A stretch of DNA of 64,000 nucleotides from Bacillota bacterium (GTDB lineage: Bacteria > Bacillota > Dethiobacteria > Dethiobacterales > Dethiobacteraceae): positions 1 through 64,000 of the forward strand of contig JAAYSO010000035.1 of assembly GCA_012523945.1 (NCBI GenBank). Direction: 5' to 3'. The translations under genes and the position numbers were made by a program. Positions 19,955 to 32,605 of the stretch are shown here, one piece after another. The notes beneath the pieces are model-generated. The model did not search any database and was not told the DNA's origin. It worked only from the letters and a program-made list of their open reading frames with translations. Each line of letters opens with the position of its first letter. The first letter of the stretch is position 1.

Positions 19955-20131
19955 GAGACAAAACAGGATATTTCTGATGCAGGTACTCGTAAGAGTATAA
20001 AGGGAATCAGGTGCAAAGCCTGAGCGGTCCCGCCACTGTAACCGCGAGTTTTAAAGCAAAATGCCACTCGCCAGGCTGCGGGGAAGGCGCTTTGAAATGT
20101 TGACCGGGAGCCAGGAAACCTGCCTGTGTCA
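19955..20131 (+). ncRNA. Cobalamin (B12) riboswitch
   Basis: The conserved core is plain: GGGAATCAGGTGCAAAGCCT, CCCGCCACTGTAACCGCGAG, TGCCACTC, GGGGAAGGCG and the B12 box GAGCCAGGAAACCTGCC. GCAGGT near 19980 pairs with ACCTGC near 20118 to close the aptamer. It should lower cbiB-cobD expression when adenosylcobalamin is plentiful. Confidence 0.95.
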
Positions 20132-20184
20132 AGTTTAATCGTGCCCTCGGGTTAAGGGAAACGTGTATTTTTTTGCGCTTTTCT

Positions 20185-20241: not shown

Positions 20242-21207
20242 ATGTTTACAATTGTGCTTGCTTTTATTATAGATGCACTAAGCGGTGATCCGGACTGGTT
20301 CCCGCACCCGGTGGTGCAAATAGGTCGTTTAATCACTGTGGCGGAAAAACGTCTCTACAACGCAACAAAACCGGCGCGCAGACAGATTTTTGCCGGTATT
20401 TTACTTGTGATATTTATATTGTTGGTAACCTTTATTGTGAGCTGGGGCGTCGTTTTTCTTTTTACACGCGTACATACTGTTTTGGGGATATTGGCAACCA
20501 TTATTTTGCTGTCAACAACTTTTGCAGCACGGGGACTGCAGGCAGCTGCCCAAGAAGTGCTCTTACCCCTGAAAAAAGGTGATTTGGCGGCGGCACGGCA
20601 GGCTGTGGCCATGATCGTGAGCCGGGATACTGAACAAATGTCAGCCGGTGAAGTTGCTCGTGCTACCATTGAAACGGTGGCGGAAAATACTATAGACGGT
20701 GTTACTGCCCCTATTTTTTATGCGCTTTTAGGCGGGGTGCCCCTGGCAATGCTTTATAAAGCCGTTAACACTATGGACTCAATGTTGGGATATAAAAATG
20801 AACGCTATCTTTATTTTGGACGCGCCGCAGCCATTTTGGATGATTGGGCCAATTGGCTGCCGGCCCGTCTTACTGCTCCTGCCATGATTTTAGCCGCCTA
20901 TTGTTTGCGCTACGATGCAAAAGCAGCTTTTAAAGCAATGCGGCGTGACAGCCGTTTACATGCCAGTCCCAACAGCGGTTTTGCAGAAGCCACCACAGCC
21001 GGTGCCCTTAATATTACTTTAGGCGGGCAGAGCAGTTATTTTGGGCGGATCAGCAAGCGGCCGCTTTTGTGGCCGGAAGGACGTCCGCCTCAAGTTTTAG
21101 ATATTGAAAAAGCCACGAAACTGATGCGGGTAACATCCGTGATTTTCTTAGCCTGCGGCCTGGTTGTGCGGGCTCTGCTTGTTTTTTGTCTAAGCTTGAT
21201 AAGGTAA
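20242..21207 (+). CDS. cbiB: Adenosylcobinamide-phosphate synthase
   Basis: Attaches aminopropanol (or its phosphate) to adenosylcobyric acid in the late corrinoid pathway. The 321-aa integral membrane protein opens with the family signature DALSGDPDWFPHPVVQIG. It also shows ETVAENTIDGVTAPIFYALLGG and NTMDSMLGYKNERY, and ends in hydrophobic helices. GAGGAG precedes the ATG at 20242; an upstream in-frame ATG lies inside the riboswitch terminator region. Control by the cobalamin riboswitch is explicit in the sequence. Confidence 0.96.
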   Translation: MFTIVLAFIIDALSGDPDWFPHPVVQIGRLITVAEKRLYNATKPARRQIFAGILLVIFILLVTFIVSWGVVFLFTRVHTVLGILATIILLSTTFAARGLQAAAQEVLLPLKKGDLAAARQAVAMIVSRDTEQMSAGEVARATIETVAENTIDGVTAPIFYALLGGVPLAMLYKAVNTMDSMLGYKNERYLYFGRAAAILDDWANWLPARLTAPAMILAAYCLRYDAKAAFKAMRRDSRLHASPNSGFAEATTAGALNITLGGQSSYFGRISKRPLLWPEGRPPQVLDIEKATKLMRVTSVIFLACGLVVRALLVFCLSLIR

Positions 21208-21225
21208 AACTGGAGGTATTAGTTC

Positions 21226-22323
21226 ATGCCCACAAAAGCAAATCTGCACCCTTTCGGACATGGCGGTGACCTGGTTACAGCAGCCGAAGCTTACGGCCTG
21301 GCGGCTGAGCAAATTATCGATTTTAGTGCTAATATTAATCCGTTAGGGCCGCCTCCGGGCTTAAAAGAATATTTAATGGAGCATTTTGCTGTCATTGCCT
21401 CTTATCCTGATCCGGCCTGCCGCAGCCTGATTGCTGCCATTAAAGAAAGATATCAGCCTAATCACGAGGTTGTGACCGGTAACGGTGCCGGAGAATTAAT
21501 TTATGATCTTATGCGCTGCCTCCCTGCGGGACCGGTTTTAATTCCGGCACCCGGCTTTACACTATATGCCACAGCGGCAGAAGCAGCAGGGAGGCCTGTC
21601 ATTTATCACTACCTTAAGCGGGAACATGATTTTATACTGCAAGTGGACAGCTTCGGCAAAGAAATCAAAGAGAAACGCCCGGCGCTGGTGATGATCTGCA
21701 ATCCTAACAATCCCACCGGAGCCGGTTTAACCCGCCCCGAAATTTTAGCAATCAGCAAAGTATGTGCCCAAAGCGGAGCCTATCTGGTAGTTGATGAAGC
21801 TTTTTTAGAATTTAATCCCTACTGGCAGCAGCGTACCATGGTGAGCTCAGCTCCGGAAAATGTACTCGTGCTTTGTTCTTTGACAAAAATGTATGCCATT
21901 GCCGGGCTGCGGCTGGGTTTTTTAACTGTACCTGCTCATTTACACAAGAAATTACTTGACGCAAAACACCCCTGGAGTGTAAATGCTTTTGCCCAGTTGG
22001 CCGGCCAATTTATCTTACGCGACCGGAAATATGTAGAACAAACTGTGGACTATGTGAACCGGCAGGCGGGTGAGCTTTATGATGCCTTAAAAAATATCCC
22101 CGGCATTAATCCTTTTCCGCCCACAGCAAATTATATTTTTTTGGAAACGAGAAATTTGCCTTCTCCTGACCTGCAGGCCGCACTCATCAAAGAGAAAATT
22201 TTAATTCGCGATTGCGGAAACTATCAAGGTTTAAACCAACACTATGCCCGCGTGGCAGTACGCAATTCTGCTGACAATAAAAAACTAATTGCAGCACTGT
22301 CAGCAGTAGCGAATAAAATTTGA
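21226..22323 (+). CDS. cobD: Threonine-phosphate decarboxylase
   Basis: PLP enzyme giving (R)-1-amino-2-propanol phosphate for the lower corrinoid loop. The 365-aa protein starts with HGGDLVTAAEAYGL and IDFSANINPLGPP, which distinguishes it from histidinol-phosphate aminotransferase. The PLP-binding Lys is in SLTKMYAIAGLRLG and the PNNPTGAGL loop is present. It follows cbiB by 18 bases and completes a two-gene riboswitch operon. No other cobalamin gene is in the window, so the cell either scavenges cobyric acid or encodes the rest elsewhere. Confidence 0.93.
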   Translation: MPTKANLHPFGHGGDLVTAAEAYGLAAEQIIDFSANINPLGPPPGLKEYLMEHFAVIASYPDPACRSLIAAIKERYQPNHEVVTGNGAGELIYDLMRCLPAGPVLIPAPGFTLYATAAEAAGRPVIYHYLKREHDFILQVDSFGKEIKEKRPALVMICNPNNPTGAGLTRPEILAISKVCAQSGAYLVVDEAFLEFNPYWQQRTMVSSAPENVLVLCSLTKMYAIAGLRLGFLTVPAHLHKKLLDAKHPWSVNAFAQLAGQFILRDRKYVEQTVDYVNRQAGELYDALKNIPGINPFPPTANYIFLETRNLPSPDLQAALIKEKILIRDCGNYQGLNQHYARVAVRNSADNKKLIAALSAVANKI

Positions 22324-23252: not shown

Positions 23253-25049
23253 TTATGCTCCTTGGTCTTGGGCGGCATCATCAGCCCCGGGAGGTGTCCA
23301 GGAGTTGGTAACGTCAACAAATTCGAAGTTGCCTTCAGGCTGCTGTTGAGCCACCACCAGTCTTTCGTGGAATTTCTCCAGAGATGAACGGTGGCCGATG
23401 GAGACAATGGTAGTATCTTTCATCCGCTCTAAGAGCATGTTGTACAGGATTTCTTCTGAATCTTCGTCCATACTTGCCGTAGCTTCATCAAAGAAGAGAT
23501 AATCCGGCTTATAAAGCATGGCTCTGGCAATTCCGACTCTCTGCTGTTCACCACCGGACAGAACACGATACCAGTGAGCTTCTTCATCCAATCTATCTAC
23601 AAACTGACCAAGGTCAACATCACGCAATACTTGCTCCATTTCTTCACGGCTGTATTTTTCAGGCGGCTCGGGATAACTGATAACTTCTGCCAGGGTTCCA
23701 ATGGGTAGATACGGTTTTTGTGGTAAGACGATAACTTTTTTGTCTTTAGGTATTAAAACTTTACCGTTACCAAAAGGCCAAATACCTGTAATGACTCTAA
23801 AGAGAGTTGTTTTACCGGCGCCTGTTTTCCCTTTAATCAGTACTTTTTCACCTTTATTAAAGGCCAGATCTTGTGCTACAGCTTGTAATTCACCGGTTGG
23901 CAGGAAGATATCCATTTTGGGAATATGAACATTGTCAGCATCATGTTCATCAATGACAATATTGGATGCTTGTGTGATCTTTTCAGCTTCTTCGTGGCTG
24001 TCAAGGAAACCGACAAGACGGTTAATAACAGCTTTCCAGACGGCGAGGTCGGCGTAGATGGTTTGGAAAAACTTAAAGGTCAGGAGTACCTGTTGGAAAG
24101 CGTTGGCAATCTGCATGATGGAACCGTAACCGCCGGGGATTGCTCCCAGGAAATAGGCAGGTCCCAAGAGAATGGAAATGACGACACCATCGGCAAAAGC
24201 AAAGCCTAAAGTGATAAATTGTAGTTTCATCCGCCGCATTGCCATTCTGAAAGTATTGGCAATAACGTTGTTAAAAATCTCCATGACACGTGTATGTTCT
24301 ACTTGTTCACCGCCAAGCAGGGAGATTTGCTCACTGTTCTCCCTAATTTGGACCAGTGAAAAACGGAAGTCAGCTTCATATCTTGTCTGGTCATAAGTGA
24401 TACCGATTAAAGCTCTACCAAAGAAGTGTGCACCGTAGGTGCCGATAACTGACCAGATGAAGGCAATGACAATGAAGTAACCGGGGAAAGACCAGTCTCT
24501 GCCAAAAAGAATCATAGGAATTGTGGCAGACAAGTTCCACAGAATTACAATAAAGGAGCCCAATGTTAAAAGGTTTTGGAACAGCTGAAAAGTGTATCTC
24601 CAGGTGAAATCAAGGAAACGGTTGATATCTTCTGCAATCCGCTGGTCCGGGTTGTCAATTTTGCTACCTGTAAATTGCATGCGGTAATGGTTAAAATCTG
24701 TCATCCAGTTATCAATAAAGCGGGAAGACATCCACCTGCGCCAGCGAATGGCTATCCATTGGTCCAGATAATGCCTGAGTCCGCCACTAATGGTGGAAAC
24801 CCCGGCGAAGAGGGCAAAAATAATGAGTTGCTGGTTCCACAAGGGACGGTCAACATTAACATAAGCGTTTGTCCAGTCAGAATACCAAGCGTTAATACGG
24901 ATTAATGCGATAACGGAAACAACCATTAGGAGTACGTCAGCAATCAAAAGCAGCCAGCTGCCAAGACGTTCTTCAGATTCGAGCCAGTATGGGGCCGCCA
25001 ATCTCCATAATTGTTTTATCGCGCGAACAATTTTTCTCATTGTCGTCAT
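23253..25049 (-). CDS. ABC transporter, SbmA/ABCD-type membrane domain fused to ATPase (copy 1)
   Basis: Half-transporter of 598 aa. The N-terminal two thirds hold about six membrane helices and the YLDQWIAIRWRRWM segment typical of the SbmA/BacA-ABC_membrane_2 family (YddA, Rv1819c, human ABCD4). The ATPase has Walker A KGKTGAGKTT, signature LSGGEQQ, Walker B YLFFDEATASMDE and the H-loop GHRSS. Family members import peptides, cobalamin or other hydrophilic ligands; the substrate here is unknown. The gene lies 44 bases after a DUF4430-like surface protein. The two form a unit that is repeated at 26.5-29.2 kb. Confidence 0.9.
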   Translation of the reverse strand: MTTMRKIVRAIKQLWRLAAPYWLESEERLGSWLLLIADVLLMVVSVIALIRINAWYSDWTNAYVNVDRPLWNQQLIIFALFAGVSTISGGLRHYLDQWIAIRWRRWMSSRFIDNWMTDFNHYRMQFTGSKIDNPDQRIAEDINRFLDFTWRYTFQLFQNLLTLGSFIVILWNLSATIPMILFGRDWSFPGYFIVIAFIWSVIGTYGAHFFGRALIGITYDQTRYEADFRFSLVQIRENSEQISLLGGEQVEHTRVMEIFNNVIANTFRMAMRRMKLQFITLGFAFADGVVISILLGPAYFLGAIPGGYGSIMQIANAFQQVLLTFKFFQTIYADLAVWKAVINRLVGFLDSHEEAEKITQASNIVIDEHDADNVHIPKMDIFLPTGELQAVAQDLAFNKGEKVLIKGKTGAGKTTLFRVITGIWPFGNGKVLIPKDKKVIVLPQKPYLPIGTLAEVISYPEPPEKYSREEMEQVLRDVDLGQFVDRLDEEAHWYRVLSGGEQQRVGIARAMLYKPDYLFFDEATASMDEDSEEILYNMLLERMKDTTIVSIGHRSSLEKFHERLVVAQQQPEGNFEFVDVTNSWTPPGADDAAQDQGA

Positions 25050-25093
25050 AAACCTCCATATATATAATTAAACTCTCGCACTTTCCCGCCGGA

Positions 25094-25933
25094 TTAAATT
25101 TTTCTACTCTTTTGCCAATGTATGTTTTCTTGTTTTTTACCTATGAAAGTGATGGCAAAGATGACGGGGATAAAAATGGCTAATCCGCCGAAAGTCATTA
25201 TCTGTAAAAGTACGTCACCTTCAAAGACAGGCAAAGCTTCTTCCTCTTGTTGAACAGGTGCTGCTGCCGGATCATCAGCACCTGAGCTAACACCGCCGTC
25301 AACGGGGATGGCAGCTACATTGCCTACTGCAACTACGCCGGTAGCGGGAACAGTGATATTACCTTCGGCATCAGTTGCACCTAAAGATGCGCCTGTTTCC
25401 GGGTCAATGACTTCAGCATTTGCCAGAGGAGCAGAGCTATAACTGAAGGTTGTAAAATCCAGGATCCATTCGGTTGCGGTAACAGTGGCTGAATCACCGG
25501 AAACAGAAACTGTTAAAGCAACTGCCTGTGCCGGTACTGCCGGGTCACTGGAGAGGGACATGATGATATTGTCTCCGCCTTTGACTGCGGTAATATCAGC
25601 AGTGCCTGGGTTTTCCGGAGCCCCTAGAGGTGCGCCGTTAAGAATAACAAATGGGGTTGTGTTAACGCCCCAGGCTTTCGTGATTAAAAACATATTCCAC
25701 ATAGAATCAATGCCTGCTTCATAGCCGCTTTCTCCACCTGGGAAAAAAGCTGCGTGGGCTGCTTTCAGAGCGCCGTCTACAGTCATTTCCGCGGGGGAGA
25801 CGGGCTGAGCAGCAACTATCAGTTCACCGTCAACGCTAACAGTTATATAGACAGTGTTTTCTTCTGCCAAGGCAACTGAAGTCATTGCTATCAACATCAT
25901 GACAGCAATGAAAAATATGAGTGCTTTTTTCAT
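25094..25933 (-). CDS. Membrane-anchored surface protein with DUF4430-like domain (copy 1)
   Basis: Predicted extracytoplasmic protein of 279 aa. It has a signal peptide (residues 1-23), a first domain with TVDGALKAAHAAFFPGG, FVILNGAPLG and VKGGDNI, and a second beta-rich domain with ATDAEGNITV. An Ala/Pro/Glu linker, one membrane helix (about 243-263) and a basic tail follow. The first domain resembles DUF4430/transcobalamin C-terminal-like domains, by motif order only. It would present a binding domain outside the cell beside the ABC transporter encoded next. AGGAGG precedes the ATG. Confidence 0.7.
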   Translation of the reverse strand: MKKALIFFIAVMMLIAMTSVALAEENTVYITVSVDGELIVAAQPVSPAEMTVDGALKAAHAAFFPGGESGYEAGIDSMWNMFLITKAWGVNTTPFVILNGAPLGAPENPGTADITAVKGGDNIIMSLSSDPAVPAQAVALTVSVSGDSATVTATEWILDFTTFSYSSAPLANAEVIDPETGASLGATDAEGNITVPATGVVAVGNVAAIPVDGGVSSGADDPAAAPVQQEEEALPVFEGDVLLQIMTFGGLAIFIPVIFAITFIGKKQENIHWQKSRKI

Positions 25934-26442
25934 CAGGTATCCTCCTAAAAGTAGATTTTATTAGGCATGTTTTTTAAAAGGGTCTTGGATTCTTTTGGCA
26001 GCAAAATTAAAAATACCCCTATACAAGCAAATAGCCTCACCTCACTGCAGACATTTCTTTAAATTTGATTTAAGTTTTTAAGTAATGTGTTTACACTACC
26101 CAAAACTTTCGACAAATCAGAAAGTTGCGAAAACGGCTGTCGCAGTGATACTATGACCTTTAGTAGAAAAGGGCATGTTTGGTGAGATTACCCTGCTAAA
26201 ATTCGTAGGGGTATCCTGCTGAATTTACGTTGCCTAAATTTTTAAGCAAAGTTAAAGTTGTTAAAAGGTGTGCCAAAACATGTCGATACAAATATACCAC
26301 CGGTGATATCTTTGCACCTATAAGTAATTTCCACAAAAGTTCCTTTTTTCCTTTCTAATATAAAAAAATTCAATATATTCTTTTTATTGAAAAAGTTGCG
26401 ACCTACATTTATATCTATGAATATCAGCAGAAAAAAATAAAC
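25934..26442. other. Noncoding region between the two transporter units
   Basis: No credible gene. It contains ATACCCCTATA (26013-26023), the reverse of its first nine bases (26206-26214), and a hairpin AACTTTC/GAAAGTT (26104-26126). A perfect Spo0A-box sequence TTCGACAAA (26108-26116) overlaps that hairpin. These lie upstream of copy 1 and are probably its control region; I could not fix the promoter. Confidence 0.5.
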
Positions 26443-26477
26443 GGAGTGCTGCAAAAGAGAAAACTTTGCAGCACTCC
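26443..26477 (-). terminator. Terminator of the copy 2 transporter
   Basis: GGAGTGCTGCAAA and TTTGCAGCACTCC pair perfectly over 13 bp; minus-strand transcripts exit through GTTTATTTTTTT. Confidence 0.9.
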
Positions 26478-26484
26478 ACATTAA

Positions 26485-28278
26485 TTATGCTCTGCTTTGA
26501 GAAGCTGCCTCATCGCCAGCAGGAGGGGTCTCGTCTCTGCCCGAATCTACAAACATAAAGCTGCCGCTGGGTTGCGGTTCGGCAACAATTAGTCTCTCGT
26601 GGAATTTCTCCAGTGAAGAACGGTGGCCGATGGAAATAATAGTTGTATCTTGCATCCGTTCTAACAGTATTTTGTATAGAACTTCTTCTGAAGGCTCGTC
26701 CATTGAGGCAGTTGCTTCATCAAAGAAGAGATAATCTGGTTTGTAAAGCATGGCGCGGGCAATACCGACTCTCTGCTGTTCACCGCCGGAAAAGACACGA
26801 TACCAGTGAGCTTCTTCATCCAGCCTGTCTACAAACTGGCCAAGATCAACATCGCGTAGTACCTGTTCCATTTCCTCGCGGCTGTACTTTTCAGGCGGCT
26901 CCGGATAACTGATAACTTCTGCCAGTGTGCCGATGGGCAGGTACGGTCTTTGCGGCAGGACAATGACTTTTTTGTCTTTTGGTACAATAACTTTACCTTT
27001 ACCGAAAGGCCAGATGCCGGAAATGACTCTAAAGAGTGTAGTTTTACCTGCACCTGTTTTTCCTTTAATCAGTACTTTTTCACCTTTCTTAAAGGCCATA
27101 TCTTTTGCTGTCACTTGTAACTGACCGTTAGGCAGGAAAATATCCATTTGTGGTACTTGTATTTCTTCTGTATCTTGTTCTTCAATTTCAATTCTGGATT
27201 GACGTGTAATTTCAGCTGCTTCTTCACGGCTGTCCAGGAAACCGCAAAGACGGTTGATGACGGCTTTCCAATGAGCCAATTGCTCATAAATTTGTTTAAA
27301 AAATTTAAAAGTAGTTAAAACAGTGGAGAATGCCTGTGAGATCTGCATGATGGCACCGTATCCGCCGGGTATCGCACCCATAAAATAGGATGGCCCCAAG
27401 AGTACGGAAATGACTACACCGTCCGCCATATCAAAGCCTACAGACACAATGCTTAATTTCATTCTCCGCAGCATAATTCTAAAATTGTTGGCGATAACGT
27501 TGTTGAAAATGGACATTAGTTGTGAATGCTCAACATTTTCGCCGCCTAAAAGGGCAATCTGCTCACTGTTTTCACGCACACGAACCAGTGAAAAACGGAA
27601 GTCAGCTTCGTATCTTGTCTGGTTGTAGTTTAAACCGATTAAAGCTTTTCCGAATGTATGTGAGAGGAAAGTTCCCAGGGCTGCCCACAGTAAAGCTATG
27701 ACAATGAAATACCCGGGGAAAGACCAATCTTTACCGAATAGCATCAAAGGAATGTTATTGGAAAGGTTCCACAAAATAACGAGAAAGGAGCCCAGTGTTA
27801 AAACCTGCTGCAGCAAGTTAAAAGTAAACATCCAGGTGTAATCAAGGAAAACCTTGACATCTTCAGAAATGCGCTGGTCAGGGTTGTCAGTTGATTTGGT
27901 AAACTGCATTCTGTAGTAGTTGAAATCTTCCATCCAGTTGTCAATAAATTCGGAAGTCATCCACCTTCTCCAACGGATGGCAATCCACTGGTCAATATAG
28001 TTTCTGAAACCTGCACCAAATGTCATCACGATGCCGACGGTGAGAAAGACCCACAGCTGCTGCTTCCATAATGGATAGTTTACATCAACATAGGCATTGG
28101 TCCAGTCGAGATACCATGTGTTCATACGCACTGAAGCTGCTACAGTTAAAATCATAATGGAGAGACTAGCCAATAGCAGCAGCCAGCTGCCAACACGCTC
28201 CTCTGACTTGAGCCAGTAAGGAACTGCCAGCCTCCAGATTTGTTTGAGCATATTAATAATTTTTTTCATAGTCTTCAA
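26485..28278 (-). CDS. ABC transporter, SbmA/ABCD-type membrane domain fused to ATPase (copy 2)
   Basis: Paralogue of the transporter at 23.3 kb, 597 aa with the same layout. The membrane halves differ moderately, but the ATPase halves are nearly identical, including a run of about 50 identical residues from PYLPIGTLAEV to EEAHWYRV. The signature here reads FSGGEQQ instead of LSGGEQQ. Walker A, Walker B and the H-loop are intact. It is 60 bases downstream of its own DUF4430-like partner. Whether the copies form homodimers or a heterodimer cannot be told from sequence. Confidence 0.9.
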   Translation of the reverse strand: MKTMKKIINMLKQIWRLAVPYWLKSEERVGSWLLLLASLSIMILTVAASVRMNTWYLDWTNAYVDVNYPLWKQQLWVFLTVGIVMTFGAGFRNYIDQWIAIRWRRWMTSEFIDNWMEDFNYYRMQFTKSTDNPDQRISEDVKVFLDYTWMFTFNLLQQVLTLGSFLVILWNLSNNIPLMLFGKDWSFPGYFIVIALLWAALGTFLSHTFGKALIGLNYNQTRYEADFRFSLVRVRENSEQIALLGGENVEHSQLMSIFNNVIANNFRIMLRRMKLSIVSVGFDMADGVVISVLLGPSYFMGAIPGGYGAIMQISQAFSTVLTTFKFFKQIYEQLAHWKAVINRLCGFLDSREEAAEITRQSRIEIEEQDTEEIQVPQMDIFLPNGQLQVTAKDMAFKKGEKVLIKGKTGAGKTTLFRVISGIWPFGKGKVIVPKDKKVIVLPQRPYLPIGTLAEVISYPEPPEKYSREEMEQVLRDVDLGQFVDRLDEEAHWYRVFSGGEQQRVGIARAMLYKPDYLFFDEATASMDEPSEEVLYKILLERMQDTTIISIGHRSSLEKFHERLIVAEPQPSGSFMFVDSGRDETPPAGDEAASQSRA

Positions 28279-28338
28279 CCATCCCCCAAAAAATATTTTT
28301 ACTACAGAAACAGCAATCTTCTGCTCTTCAAACTCTGC

Positions 28339-29229
28339 TTAAGATATTTTCCGGCTTTTTTGCTCGTAGATATTTTCCTGTTTCCTGCCGATGGTCATAA
28401 TGACAATAAAAATTGGTACAAGCAAAATAACTCCCCAGATGACTATTTGCATTAAAAGCTTGTCACTGGTCAGGGAGTAATCTTCTTCCGGTACAGCAGG
28501 CGGTTGTGCCGGTGTTTGCGGAGAGGCAGGATCTGCCGGTGCCGCCGGCGCGGCAGGAGAGTCTGTCCCGCCAGGAATTGAAGCTGAAGAGCCGTCTGCG
28601 GGGATAGCTGCCAGACCGTTAATGGCTACTATGCCGCTTGCCGGAATAGAAATGGTGAGACTGCCGTTGGCATCCGTTGTACCCAGGGAAGTCCCGGTGT
28701 CCGGGTCAATAACTTCGGCATTGGCAAAGGGAACAGAACTATAAGTAAAAGTAGTAAAATCAAGTACCCAGTTGGTTGCTCTTACTGTTACCGTATCGTC
28801 TTCCACTAAAGCCGTGAGAGAAATTGCCAGAGCCGGCACCGTCGGGTCGCTGGAGACAGACATAATAATGTTGTCACCGGCTTTAATCGGTGTAACATCG
28901 GCTGTCCCCGGGTTTGACGGAGCACCCAGAGGCGCATCGTTTAGGATGACGAAGGGAGTAGCGTTAATGCCCCATGCTTTAGAGATTAAAAACATGTTCC
29001 ACATCGGATCGATGCCGCTTTCATAACCGCTTTCTCCGCCCGGGTAAAATGCGGCGTGGGCTGCCTTTAGTGCTCCCTCCACAGTCATTTCCGCAGGGGA
29101 GACGGGCTGTGCGGCAACTACAAGCTGGCCGTCAACACTTACAGTTACATAGACAGTCGTTTCTTCCGCCAATGCAACGGTAGTCAGCGCCAATATTATG
29201 GCGATGACAAGTACGAATACTTTTTTCAT
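28339..29229 (-). CDS. Membrane-anchored surface protein with DUF4430-like domain (copy 2)
   Basis: Paralogue of the protein at 25.1 kb, 296 aa. The same order is seen: signal peptide (residues 1-21), TVEGALKAAHAAFYPGG domain with FVILNDAPLG and IKAGDNI, a second beta domain with TTDANGSLTI, a longer Pro/Ala linker, one membrane helix and a basic tail ending KSRKIS. The first domain is strongly conserved between copies while linker and tail vary. This fits selection on ligand binding. A GGAGGAAAC ribosome binding site precedes the ATG. Confidence 0.7.
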   Translation of the reverse strand: MKKVFVLVIAIILALTTVALAEETTVYVTVSVDGQLVVAAQPVSPAEMTVEGALKAAHAAFYPGGESGYESGIDPMWNMFLISKAWGINATPFVILNDAPLGAPSNPGTADVTPIKAGDNIIMSVSSDPTVPALAISLTALVEDDTVTVRATNWVLDFTTFTYSSVPFANAEVIDPDTGTSLGTTDANGSLTISIPASGIVAINGLAAIPADGSSASIPGGTDSPAAPAAPADPASPQTPAQPPAVPEEDYSLTSDKLLMQIVIWGVILLVPIFIVIMTIGRKQENIYEQKSRKIS

Positions 29230-29722
29230 AGTGTTTCCTCCTCACAATGATTTTTGTTTGTTTTCGAATAGAGCTGCAAAAGTATGGGGCGGATAATATG
29301 CATCATATCCGCGCAAATCTCATGTGACCATTTCGTATCCGGTTTTTACATCAAGACAACAAAAACATCACCTCACTTTTTGTGGCTTGTTTGACCCCGT
29401 TATCTGTGGACAATAATTTTCTCTAATCTATAAACTGAATAGATATAATTTTTGCACAGATGAAGTTGCACTTGGACAGAAAAATAAAACCAGAGATGGC
29501 TTTTGGGCACGATAATAGCGAGGGGTCACTTTCCGGCAAATGTTTTGATATTTTCTAAGTTGTGCGAACAATTAGATTGTTGCAACTCCTCGCATTTATT
29601 GGACATTGTAAAACAAAGTTCACGCAAAGTCTGTAATATTTTGTCGATATTAAAGAATTTCAAAAGCCTTTAACTTTACTTAACAAATAACCTAGATTTA
29701 AAGTTTTAAAGTGACAAAAAAA
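29230..29722. other. Noncoding region upstream of copy 2
   Basis: No credible gene. It holds a stem GCGGATA/TATCCGC (29289-29312) in the probable leader of copy 2, a second hairpin AACAAT/ATTGTT (29567-29581), and TTTGTCGAT (29640-29648), an eight-of-nine match to a Spo0A box. No clear promoter was identified. Confidence 0.45.
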
Positions 29723-29787: not shown

Positions 29788-30261
29788 TTAATCAGTTGAA
29801 CTATGTTTATATTCCCAAGCCCTGAGCAGGTTAAAATCTTCTTCATCCTCGTTATGCTCCTGTTGCATTTTGTGTAATGCCTGTAAAAGGTCAGGGTTGG
29901 ATTCAAAAAATGTGATTAAATTGTTGATCAGTTTCATAGTTTTAGGCGTTATATAATGTTCGAATCCTTCCACCTGTTCATCGATGCCGGATTTAGCATT
30001 AAGCAGGGTTAAAAACCTTTTTAAAGTAGCGTCACGCCAAACTAAAAACTTTCCATACTTTTCGCCCATAGGGGTAAGTGCAATATTACGGTATTTTTCA
30101 TATTTAATGAACCCGGCTTCATCAAGCCTTTGAATCATTTTCGTAACGCTGGATGCTTGAAATTGCATTGCCTCTGAAATGTCAACGGCGCGGACATACC
30201 CCTTTTTCTTAACAAGTCGATAAATCATTTCCAGGTAATCTTCCATGCTTTCCGTGAGCAA
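29788..30261 (-). CDS. DtxR/MntR-family metal-dependent regulator
   Basis: Metal-sensing repressor of 157 aa, closest in layout to MntR. The winged helix (SSVTKMIQRLDEAGFIKYEKY) and the metal ligands Asp8, Glu11, Glu98, Glu101 and His102 match MntR. The ligand normally His77 is Asp77 (VWRDATL). No SH3-like third domain is present. The TTG start has GGAGG seven bases upstream. It follows feoA-feoB on the same strand, 175 bases downstream and beyond a terminator. It probably controls iron or manganese uptake genes; which metal is open. Confidence 0.88.
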   Translation of the reverse strand: MLTESMEDYLEMIYRLVKKKGYVRAVDISEAMQFQASSVTKMIQRLDEAGFIKYEKYRNIALTPMGEKYGKFLVWRDATLKRFLTLLNAKSGIDEQVEGFEHYITPKTMKLINNLITFFESNPDLLQALHKMQQEHNEDEEDFNLLRAWEYKHSSTD

Positions 30262-30356
30262 AATCTTTCCTCCATTCTCCCTTAGTGGAACCTTACATTT
30301 TTAGTCTATGCTAAAAAGTTGTAGGAAATAACTTTTGTCATGTGCAGGCTTAATAA

Positions 30357-30383
30357 AACACTGCCGTACAGACAGGCAGTGTT
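30357..30383 (-). terminator. Terminator of feoB
   Basis: AACACTGCC and GGCAGTGTT pair perfectly around a nine-base loop and are followed on the minus strand by GTTTTATT. Confidence 0.75.
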
Positions 30384-30436
30384 AAAGGGGCAAATATTTT
30401 TTAAAGAAGCCTCCGGAAGTTTTTAAATGACGCTTT

Positions 30437-32605
30437 TTACACCAATCCCAGTATCCGGGCCCCCTGGGCCACAATAAAACAAATTATTATTCCGGCCATG
30501 GTGGGAATTAAAAAGGAAAGTAGCGTCCATTTTACACTTTGTGTTTCTTTGCGGATGGTCCAAAGTGTTGTACCACATGGCCAGTGATTAAGGGCAAAGA
30601 GCATCATGCAAACTGCAGTTAACCACGTCCAGTCATGATTTATAAATAATTGTTTTAACTCTAAGAAGCTATCCAGTTCAAGCATAGAACTTTCGGCCAT
30701 ATAGCCCATGATTAAGATGGGGATGACAATTTCATTGGCCGGCAGGCCTAGAATAAAAGCCATTAAGATGTAACCGTCTAAACCGATGAGATGGGCAAAA
30801 GGTTGCAAAAATTGAGCACAATGTGCGAGTAAGCTTTGCCCGTTAACGGAAAAGTTGGCCATGAGCCAGATAATTAACCCTGCAGGTGCAGCAATGGCAA
30901 CGGCACGGCCAAGGACAAAAAGAGTCCGGTCAAAGACGGAGCGTATAATAATTTTGCCGATTTGAGGTTTTCTATAGGGCGGAAGTTCCAAGGTGAAGGA
31001 AGAGGGCAGACCCCTTAAGATGGTGGCCGATAATACTCTGGAAGTGAGAAAGGTTAGTAGGACGCCTAAAATAACGGCGGCCAAAACAGCAAGCGTTGCC
31101 GCCAGGGAGCTGAAGGCTCCGGCACCGCTCACCAGGAAGATGCCGGCCAGTGCAATTAAGGTGGGGAAACGCCCGTTGCAGGGTACATAATTATTTGTAA
31201 GAATGGCAATTAAACGTTCCCGGGGCGAATCAATAATCCTGCAGGCAATAACCCCGGCTGCATTACAACCGAACCCCATACACATTGTTAAAGCCTGCTT
31301 GCCGTGTGCACAGGCTTTTTTGAAATAATGGTCCAGATTAAATGCAACTCGCGGCAAGTATCCTAGATCTTCCAGGAGGGTAAAGAGAGGGAAGAAGATG
31401 GCCATAGGTGGTAGCATCACGGAAACTACCCAGGCTAATGTGCGGTAAACTCCCAGAACTAAAATGTCGTAAATAAAACCGGGTGTGCCCAGCCATTGCA
31501 AAAACAGGGTTAAGTGCCCTTCCAGGTGATAAAAAACGGTGGTAAGAAGGGCAGAAGGATAATTGGCACCTTTAATTGTCAGCCAAAAAACAGCTCCCAA
31601 GAGGGCAATCATAATTGGTATACCGAAAAAACGTGAAGTTAAAATTCCGTCCAGCGTACGATCAAAACGGTTATAATTTTTGTTTTCCACCGTTACCACC
31701 TGGTGGCTGATCTTTTCCGCTGTTTTGACAATACCGGTAACTATCCGGTCGCGTAATTCATTAAGATCAACTTGGTTTTTTTGTAGTAACAGATGTGCCT
31801 GGGCCAAACTCTCCCTTAAAATATTATCGTCGGTTAAGGTGAAATTGAAAAAGCGATTCATGGCTTCCAGTAGCGTTCGGTCTGAGTCTAGAAGACGCAG
31901 GGCCACCCAGCGGCTATTAACTTTTTCACCCAGAAGGGCATGCACACGAGGTTCAATGAGTTCAATGGCTTCCTGCAGTATGTTGTCATATTCTGTACGT
32001 CTGGGCTGTACCGGGAACTGCTTTTTTGCCACCAATTTGATAGTTTCTTTTAGTTCGTTTAAACCTTCTCCCGTTCTGGCAGCAGTGCCCACGACAGGAA
32101 TTCCCAGCAAAGCGGACAGTTTTTGGAGATGAACAACAATGCCCTTTTTCCTGGCTTCATCCATTAAATTGACGCAAAGAATCACTTTATCGGTGATTTC
32201 CATAATTTGCAGAACAAGATTTAAATTTCTTTCCAGGCAGGTGGCATCTGCCACCACCACTGTTACATGAGGTTGCCCAAAACAGATAAAGTCCCTGGCA
32301 ATCTGCTCTTCAACGGAATTTACCAGCAGGGAATATGTTCCGGGCAGATCAATGAGGAGATATTTATCGCCTTTATAAGTGTACTTGCCTTGAGCGTTGG
32401 TGACAGTTTTGCCCGGCCAGTTTCCGGTGTGCTGTTTAAGGCCGGTCAAACTGTTAAAAACAGTACTTTTACCAGTGTTGGGATTACCGGCCAAAGCCAC
32501 AATTAAATCGGCCGGGGAATCTGTTTGTACCTCAAACATCTCTTTTAGGATGCCTACACCTGTAGACTGGTGAGTTAAACCCATGGGGCGGAACTTTCCT
32601 TTCAT
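30437..32605 (-). CDS. feoB: Ferrous iron transporter B
   Basis: GTP-dependent Fe(II) importer in the cytoplasmic membrane. The 722-aa protein has an N-terminal G domain with GNPNTGKST, DLPGTYS and CVNLMDEA, a helical spacer, then gate helices with LPPMAIFFPLFTLLEDLGYLPRVAF and a CNAAGV segment. A 30-residue extension precedes the G domain. The start is uncertain, since no strong ribosome binding site precedes the first ATG and another ATG lies seven codons on. feoA is 15 bases upstream. Confidence 0.95.
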   Translation of the reverse strand: MKGKFRPMGLTHQSTGVGILKEMFEVQTDSPADLIVALAGNPNTGKSTVFNSLTGLKQHTGNWPGKTVTNAQGKYTYKGDKYLLIDLPGTYSLLVNSVEEQIARDFICFGQPHVTVVVADATCLERNLNLVLQIMEITDKVILCVNLMDEARKKGIVVHLQKLSALLGIPVVGTAARTGEGLNELKETIKLVAKKQFPVQPRRTEYDNILQEAIELIEPRVHALLGEKVNSRWVALRLLDSDRTLLEAMNRFFNFTLTDDNILRESLAQAHLLLQKNQVDLNELRDRIVTGIVKTAEKISHQVVTVENKNYNRFDRTLDGILTSRFFGIPIMIALLGAVFWLTIKGANYPSALLTTVFYHLEGHLTLFLQWLGTPGFIYDILVLGVYRTLAWVVSVMLPPMAIFFPLFTLLEDLGYLPRVAFNLDHYFKKACAHGKQALTMCMGFGCNAAGVIACRIIDSPRERLIAILTNNYVPCNGRFPTLIALAGIFLVSGAGAFSSLAATLAVLAAVILGVLLTFLTSRVLSATILRGLPSSFTLELPPYRKPQIGKIIIRSVFDRTLFVLGRAVAIAAPAGLIIWLMANFSVNGQSLLAHCAQFLQPFAHLIGLDGYILMAFILGLPANEIVIPILIMGYMAESSMLELDSFLELKQLFINHDWTWLTAVCMMLFALNHWPCGTTLWTIRKETQSVKWTLLSFLIPTMAGIIICFIVAQGARILGLV

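Follow-up and report, generated by a model that had tools for sequence, protein, structure and literature searches.

In humans, cobalamin arrives in the lysosome bound to transcobalamin, and ABCD4, which works with LMBD1 and is not directly paired with transcobalamin, moves it from the lysosome to the cytosol. A bacterial transporter of the same class, Rv1819c (BacA) of Mycobacterium tuberculosis, is a type IV ATP-binding cassette (ABC) transporter that imports cobalamin along with further hydrophilic solutes; it is polyspecific, can run both ways, and holds a polar cavity of ~7700 cubic angstroms with no obvious high-affinity site (PMC10960864). Rv1819c has no known partner, and a recent review suspects still-unidentified protein partners for transporters of this type (PMC12713380). 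In Bacteroides, the surface protein BtuG captures B12 and feeds BtuB (PMC6143338), in a riboswitch-controlled, TonB-dependent system of the outer membrane. Here we describe a locus that is similar to BtuG-BtuB in concept but built of unrelated proteins. In a 64,000-nucleotide stretch of a digester bacterium of the phylum Bacillota, family Dethiobacteraceae (contig JAAYSO010000035.1; hereafter the window), a gene for a surface protein with a predicted cobalamin-binder fold (S) directly precedes a gene for a transporter resembling Rv1819c (ABC), and this two-gene unit is present in two tandem copies.

The units lie on the minus strand in the order S2-ABC2-S1-ABC1 (table 1), exactly where an earlier reading made from the letters alone (the sequence-only reading) had placed a duplicated gene pair. 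Protein comparison gives 60% identity between S1 and S2 (E 9e-125) and 72% between ABC1 and ABC2, and the units form direct repeats of 70–81% nucleotide identity at a spacing of ~3.23–3.30 kb. A strong intrinsic terminator stands behind ABC2, and a separate region of ~550 nt lies upstream of each S gene; the units are thus probably transcribed separately, as two bicistronic operons and not as a single four-gene operon. A second species of the genus (locus L026) has orthologs of both units in the same order, and in the tree each S copy groups with its own sister-species ortholog. The duplication therefore predates the species. All four genes are under purifying selection (ratio of nonsynonymous to synonymous divergence, dN/dS, 0.05–0.17), and the copies have diverged strongly at synonymous sites (dS 1.2–1.6). 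Furthermore, a third unit on contig C95 of the same genome (G000) and a fourth, truncated S gene at the edge of contig C7 had been missed by the sequence-only reading; the sister species has the same set, with three complete units and a truncated fourth S gene.

Both transporter proteins match ABC_membrane_2 (PF06472) far above the cut-off (E 1.3e-43 for ABC1, 1.5e-47 for ABC2), and, as in Rv1819c, this membrane domain, which also matches SbmA_BacA (PF05992), is fused in the same chain to an ATPase (PF00005; E 4.7e-19 in ABC2). The ATPase motifs are intact (Walker A GKTGAGKTT, signature (L/F)SGGEQQR, Walker B YLFFDEA). Among solved structures the best match is Rv1819c itself (6tqe; E 4.5e-77, 263 bits, residues 12–563), followed by ABCD1 and the lysosomal ABCD4. 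Judged by sequence, ABC1 and ABC2 are half-transporters of the Rv1819c/ABCD type with a fused ATPase. SbmA or SLiPT proper, a membrane domain alone and proton driven, is ruled out by the fused ATPase, and membership of the ABCD subfamily TIGR00954 was rejected at 212.9 and 220.8 bits against an NCBIfam cut-off of 918.9 bits. By region, the two proteins are 90–97% identical in the ATPase core and mostly 55–75% in the membrane domain, which fits paralogs that have kept the motor and altered the substrate path.

Each S protein opens with a signal peptide, followed by a pair of beta domains, a Pro/Ala linker of low complexity, and, at the C terminus, a helix carrying a basic tail, in agreement with the secreted, membrane-anchored architecture first proposed. 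Structure prediction, which the sequence-only reading had suggested as a check, returned a transcobalamin-beta-like fold for domain 1. When the AlphaFold model of this domain was compared with the PDB by Foldseek, the first 12 matches were all transcobalamin or haptocorrin (probability 0.97–1.00), led by 4kki, 7qbg, 8ixt, 5no0, and 2bb5, with TM-scores of at most 0.63. Intrinsic factor (2pmv) ranked 18th, and Ruminococcus gnavus 3u7z, labelled a putative metal-binding protein, also fell within the top 18. Across this group the probability is 0.94–1.00 and the E-values start at a modest 3.5e-3, so the evidence resides in the consistency of the list and in no single match; the model of full-length S likewise has haptocorrin and transcobalamin as its top PDB matches. 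When the profile of domain 1 was compared by hhalign with that of 30 DUF4430 domains taken from the phylum, E was 9.7e-5 with 9 sequences and 1.1e-6 with 36, and for the query set of the latter value the best of 40 column-shuffled controls reached 0.011 and the reversed control 0.08. A scan of five genomes with PF14478 (DUF4430) produced one sub-threshold match, in genome G008, which falls exactly on the S domain (12.1 bits, E 0.52), and no match in G000. From the fold matches and the profile comparison, we consider domain 1 a predicted, divergent member of the transcobalamin-beta/DUF4430 fold group that lies below the Pfam cut-off; the DUF4430-like character first read from the sequence is upheld as a fold, and strict PF14478 membership is not.

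The association of the two genes is strict. All 11 transporter genes found, in six genomes, lie directly downstream of an S gene, although in two cases the contig starts there and only the C-terminal end of S is visible. Outside the genus, G008 (UBA3936) and three Clostridia genomes (the hosts of loci L020 and L021, and G580) carry close relatives of the transporter, and in L021 three S units stand within one 755-aa protein. S without a transporter was seen in four cases, of which two lie at contig edges. Few genomes carry the pair: it occurs in 3 of 20 genomes of the family, and 399 genomes sampled from the phylum gave no further full match apart from the genus. An antimicrobial-peptide role, as the SbmA label might imply, found no echo in this neighborhood survey: no recognizable peptide, immunity, or bacteriocin gene lies beside any unit. 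Each part of the unit is of a known kind. In contrast to Rv1819c, each transporter copy is tied to a surface protein gene, and the paralogs are both tandem and dispersed. In the literature searched, whose coverage is incomplete, we found no Rv1819c/ABCD-type transporter in constant partnership with a transcobalamin-beta-like surface protein, nor anything relevant on DUF4430 with transporters or on bacterial transcobalamin-like proteins.

Distant relatives of S provide additional clues on the probable ligand. An S profile was searched in 295 genomes of the order to which the host of L021 belongs, and 18 loci with divergent S proteins were read. These proteins share the two-domain plan of S, with weak matches to CarboxypepD_reg/DUF4198 in the domain 2 region of the homologs linked to energy-coupling factor (ECF) transporters, and they align with the transporter-linked S family in hhalign (99.3%, E 9e-21). 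At 15 of the 18 loci S is followed by a gene for a secreted alpha/alpha-toroid-like protein, assigned through weak Prenyltrans/SQHop profile matches, and the long toroid proteins end in a true DUF4430 domain (PF14478, 56–60 bits), an arrangement of domains shared with transcobalamin and intrinsic factor. ECF-transporter genes follow at 12 loci, mostly EcfT, a fused ECF ATPase, and an ECF S component, and a cobalamin or AdoCbl-II riboswitch lies ~0.3–0.65 kb upstream on the same strand at eight; the number of independent riboswitch loci is somewhat lower, since L110/L111 and L113/L114 are near copies. The L106 operon adjoins homologs of cobU, cobS, cobT, and cobC. Together, these Clostridia operons look like a bacterial transcobalamin-like system for corrinoid uptake. 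Like the units of the window, they place a homologous S gene immediately before genes for an importer; they differ in the ECF-type importer, the extra toroid protein, and, in many, the riboswitch. This context firmly associates the S family with corrinoid uptake and so favors the corrinoid substrate that the sequence-only reading had suggested. The typical order is cobalamin riboswitch (in many), S-like gene, toroid plus DUF4430 gene, EcfT, fused ECF ATPase, and ECF S component, as in the operons of table 1 and in the similar L110, L111, L113, L114, and L118–L120. Two S proteins have other C-terminal parts: a transporter-less one (L121) carries a copper-amine-oxidase-N1 domain and no membrane anchor, and another (L106) has a LysM domain in place of the anchor.

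In this context, we put forward that each unit is a two-part importer. S would be exported and held by its C-terminal helix, with the transcobalamin-beta-like domain capturing a ligand outside the cell, while the ABC protein would pair into an Rv1819c/ABCD-class (type IV) homodimer and use ATP to carry large hydrophilic molecules through its wide polar cavity. By concentrating and presenting the ligand, S would supply the affinity and specificity wanting in such transporters. The likeliest ligand would be a corrinoid or corrinoid fragment, and the tandem and dispersed copies may serve different cobamides or related ligands. We infer ligand capture, hand-over, direction, and corrinoid identity from the genes, their predicted folds, the strict pairing, and the operon context of the homologs. 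On these grounds it is likely that a surface binder supplies a type IV importer, whereas the case for a corrinoid as the ligand is evenly balanced. A wider scenario, which we advance tentatively and rate somewhat below that, is that the units represent a bacterial branch of the polyspecific Rv1819c/ABCD4-class importers in which a dedicated transcobalamin-beta-like surface protein sets the substrate; they would be a counterpart of the mammalian transcobalamin-to-ABCD4 route, arisen by re-pairing a corrinoid-ECF surface module with another transporter class.

Several observations weigh against this proposal. Neither S1 nor S2 has a PF14478 match in Pfam/NCBIfam searches, and domain 1, when searched against the PDB by sequence profile, retrieved chance matches only and no transcobalamin. 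Unlike transcobalamin, haptocorrin, and intrinsic factor, with whose beta domain it shares fold, motif order, and profile similarity, S is membrane anchored, has a second beta domain, and lacks the alpha/alpha-toroid (the transcobalamin alpha domain), and so it falls outside the transcobalamin family proper. A long, fully supported branch splits the ABC-linked from the ECF-linked S clade; the ligand may have changed along it, and its identity is carried across by inference. The S module is also found, several times per protein, inside surface calcineurin-like phosphoesterases encoded near reductase genes of the two kinds discussed below, and is thus not exclusive to corrinoids. There are three to four paralogs per genome. 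No S-ABC unit at any locus has a cobalamin riboswitch, and upstream of the two window units a search for hidden or weak ones gave only implausible sub-threshold matches, as the sequence-only reading had cautioned. The only such riboswitch in the window precedes cbiB-cobD, whose identity and riboswitch control that reading had named correctly; their proximity was rejected as functional evidence, because they lie on the opposite strand with sigK between and are absent from S-ABC loci outside the genus. Elsewhere the genus has five to seven cobalamin riboswitches, preceding BtuF-BtuC-BtuD-type genes with CobU/CobS-type genes, cbiD-type and cobalt-ECF genes, a cobT-like gene, and apparent alpha-ribazole salvage genes (identities read by eye, except for a FecCD match). 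The host thus seems, from its gene content, already to make and import corrinoids, and a need for a further importer is not evident. The original observation is confirmed and its interpretation supported in part: the ECF operons speak for a corrinoid importer, the BtuFCD-type importer speaks against it, and the substrate of the pair itself is conjectural.

In addition, three of about eight independent S loci adjoin genes for old yellow enzymes (OYEs; BaiCD/bilirubin-reductase-like), at L020, L021, and L025, with only 6–14 OYEs per genome, and short-chain dehydrogenase/reductase (SDR) genes lie near L025, L028, and L030. In an alternative scenario, the same binder and type IV importer would take up another large or amphipathic ligand, such as a tetrapyrrole breakdown product or a steroid-like or enone compound, to be reduced by the neighboring OYE or SDR, with the paralogs as substrate variants. 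The missing riboswitches, the BtuFCD-type genes, and the concentration of divergence in the membrane domain all suit it. However, the window units and the C95 unit have no OYE or SDR neighbors, the OYEs score below every curated equivalog cut-off, and the association was noticed post hoc; we regard this scenario as rather unlikely. Export of, for example, a lipid, peptide, or cofactor, with S as a surface partner or cell-wall component, is improbable: the type IV ABC fold is found mostly in exporters and mycobacterial BacA moves cobalamin in both directions (PMC10960864), but the solved structure that matches best, by a wide margin, belongs to an importer, and S family members elsewhere are paired with ECF importers. 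Finally, a purely structural or adhesive S, linked to the transporter by operon convenience, could explain the reuse of the module in phosphoesterases and in tandem repeats, yet it is very doubtful in view of the invariable pairing with one transporter subfamily, the gene order conserved across families, and the fact that S family members are linked a second time, independently, to importers of the ECF type.

If a surface binder does supply a type IV importer here, this would bear on how Rv1819c-type transporters recognize substrates and choose direction. With this locus, an environmental anaerobe provides natural partners whose predicted fold is that of a cobalamin binder, and provides them as several paralogs, so that the question can be put to a direct test. 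The bacterial transcobalamin-like proteins of the B12-riboswitch ECF operons, in turn, bear on the origin of animal B12 carriers.

Table 1. Features of the S-ABC locus and of related loci (window positions, unless a locus is named).
Feature	Position	Strand	Remarks
Unit S2-ABC2	26485-29229	-
S2	28339-29229	-	296 aa; signal peptide, predicted transcobalamin-beta/DUF4430-like domain, second beta domain, Pro/Ala-rich linker, C-terminal transmembrane anchor
S2 domain 1	28840-29160	-	residues ~24-130; predicted transcobalamin beta-domain-like fold, AlphaFold2 pLDDT (model confidence) 93.6
S2 domain 2	28585-28833	-	residues ~133-215; beta domain
ABC2	26485-28278	-	597 aa; predicted Rv1819c/ABCD-type half-transporter, ABC_membrane_2 transmembrane domain and ATPase; TTG start, in-frame ATG three codons downstream a possible alternative
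Intrinsic terminator	26441-26479	-	3' of ABC2, ends unit 2; 16-bp stem and T run
Unit S1-ABC1	23253-25933	-
S1	25094-25933	-	279 aa; S2 paralog, same architecture
ABC1	23253-25049	-	598 aa; ABC2 paralog
Near-palindrome	29289-29312	.	24 nt, GCGGATAATATGCATCATATCCGC; upstream of S2
mntR-like gene and feoB	29788-32605
Cobalamin riboswitch	19964-20141	+	RF00174, 118.6 bits
cbiB and cobD	20242-22323	+	TIGR00380, TIGR01140, above NCBIfam cut-off
Clostridia operon, L109	4067-10189	+
Clostridia operon, L117	220-6223	+
Clostridia operon, L125	2840-9091	+
S protein gene, L121	7504-8616	+	no transporter
S protein gene, L106	8339-9277	-	LysM domain
OYE gene, L020	6846-8843	+	123 bp after ABC gene
OYE gene, L021	7796-9697	-	convergent
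OYE gene, L025	604-2610	+	after S fragment
S-module phosphoesterase, L046	3-2726	+	near OYE or SDR gene
S-module phosphoesterase, L049	1428-4961	+	near OYE or SDR gene
S-module phosphoesterase, L050	4878-7739	-	near OYE or SDR gene
~99-105-aa family, L025	3646-3945	+
~99-105-aa family, L028	1455-1754	+
~99-105-aa family, L121	11497-11814	-

The 5' regions of S1 and S2 in the two species yielded no convincing consensus of leader RNA structure (7 pairs, -1.7 kcal/mol). The near-palindrome upstream of S2, which is retained in the sister species with an altered center, is a possible operator; shortly past it come an mntR-like gene and feoB. Near transporter-less S genes of two lineages we also observed a conserved family of ~99–105 aa that has no Pfam match and carries the motif DGTYKI..SPMGKTEA.L.FKT.

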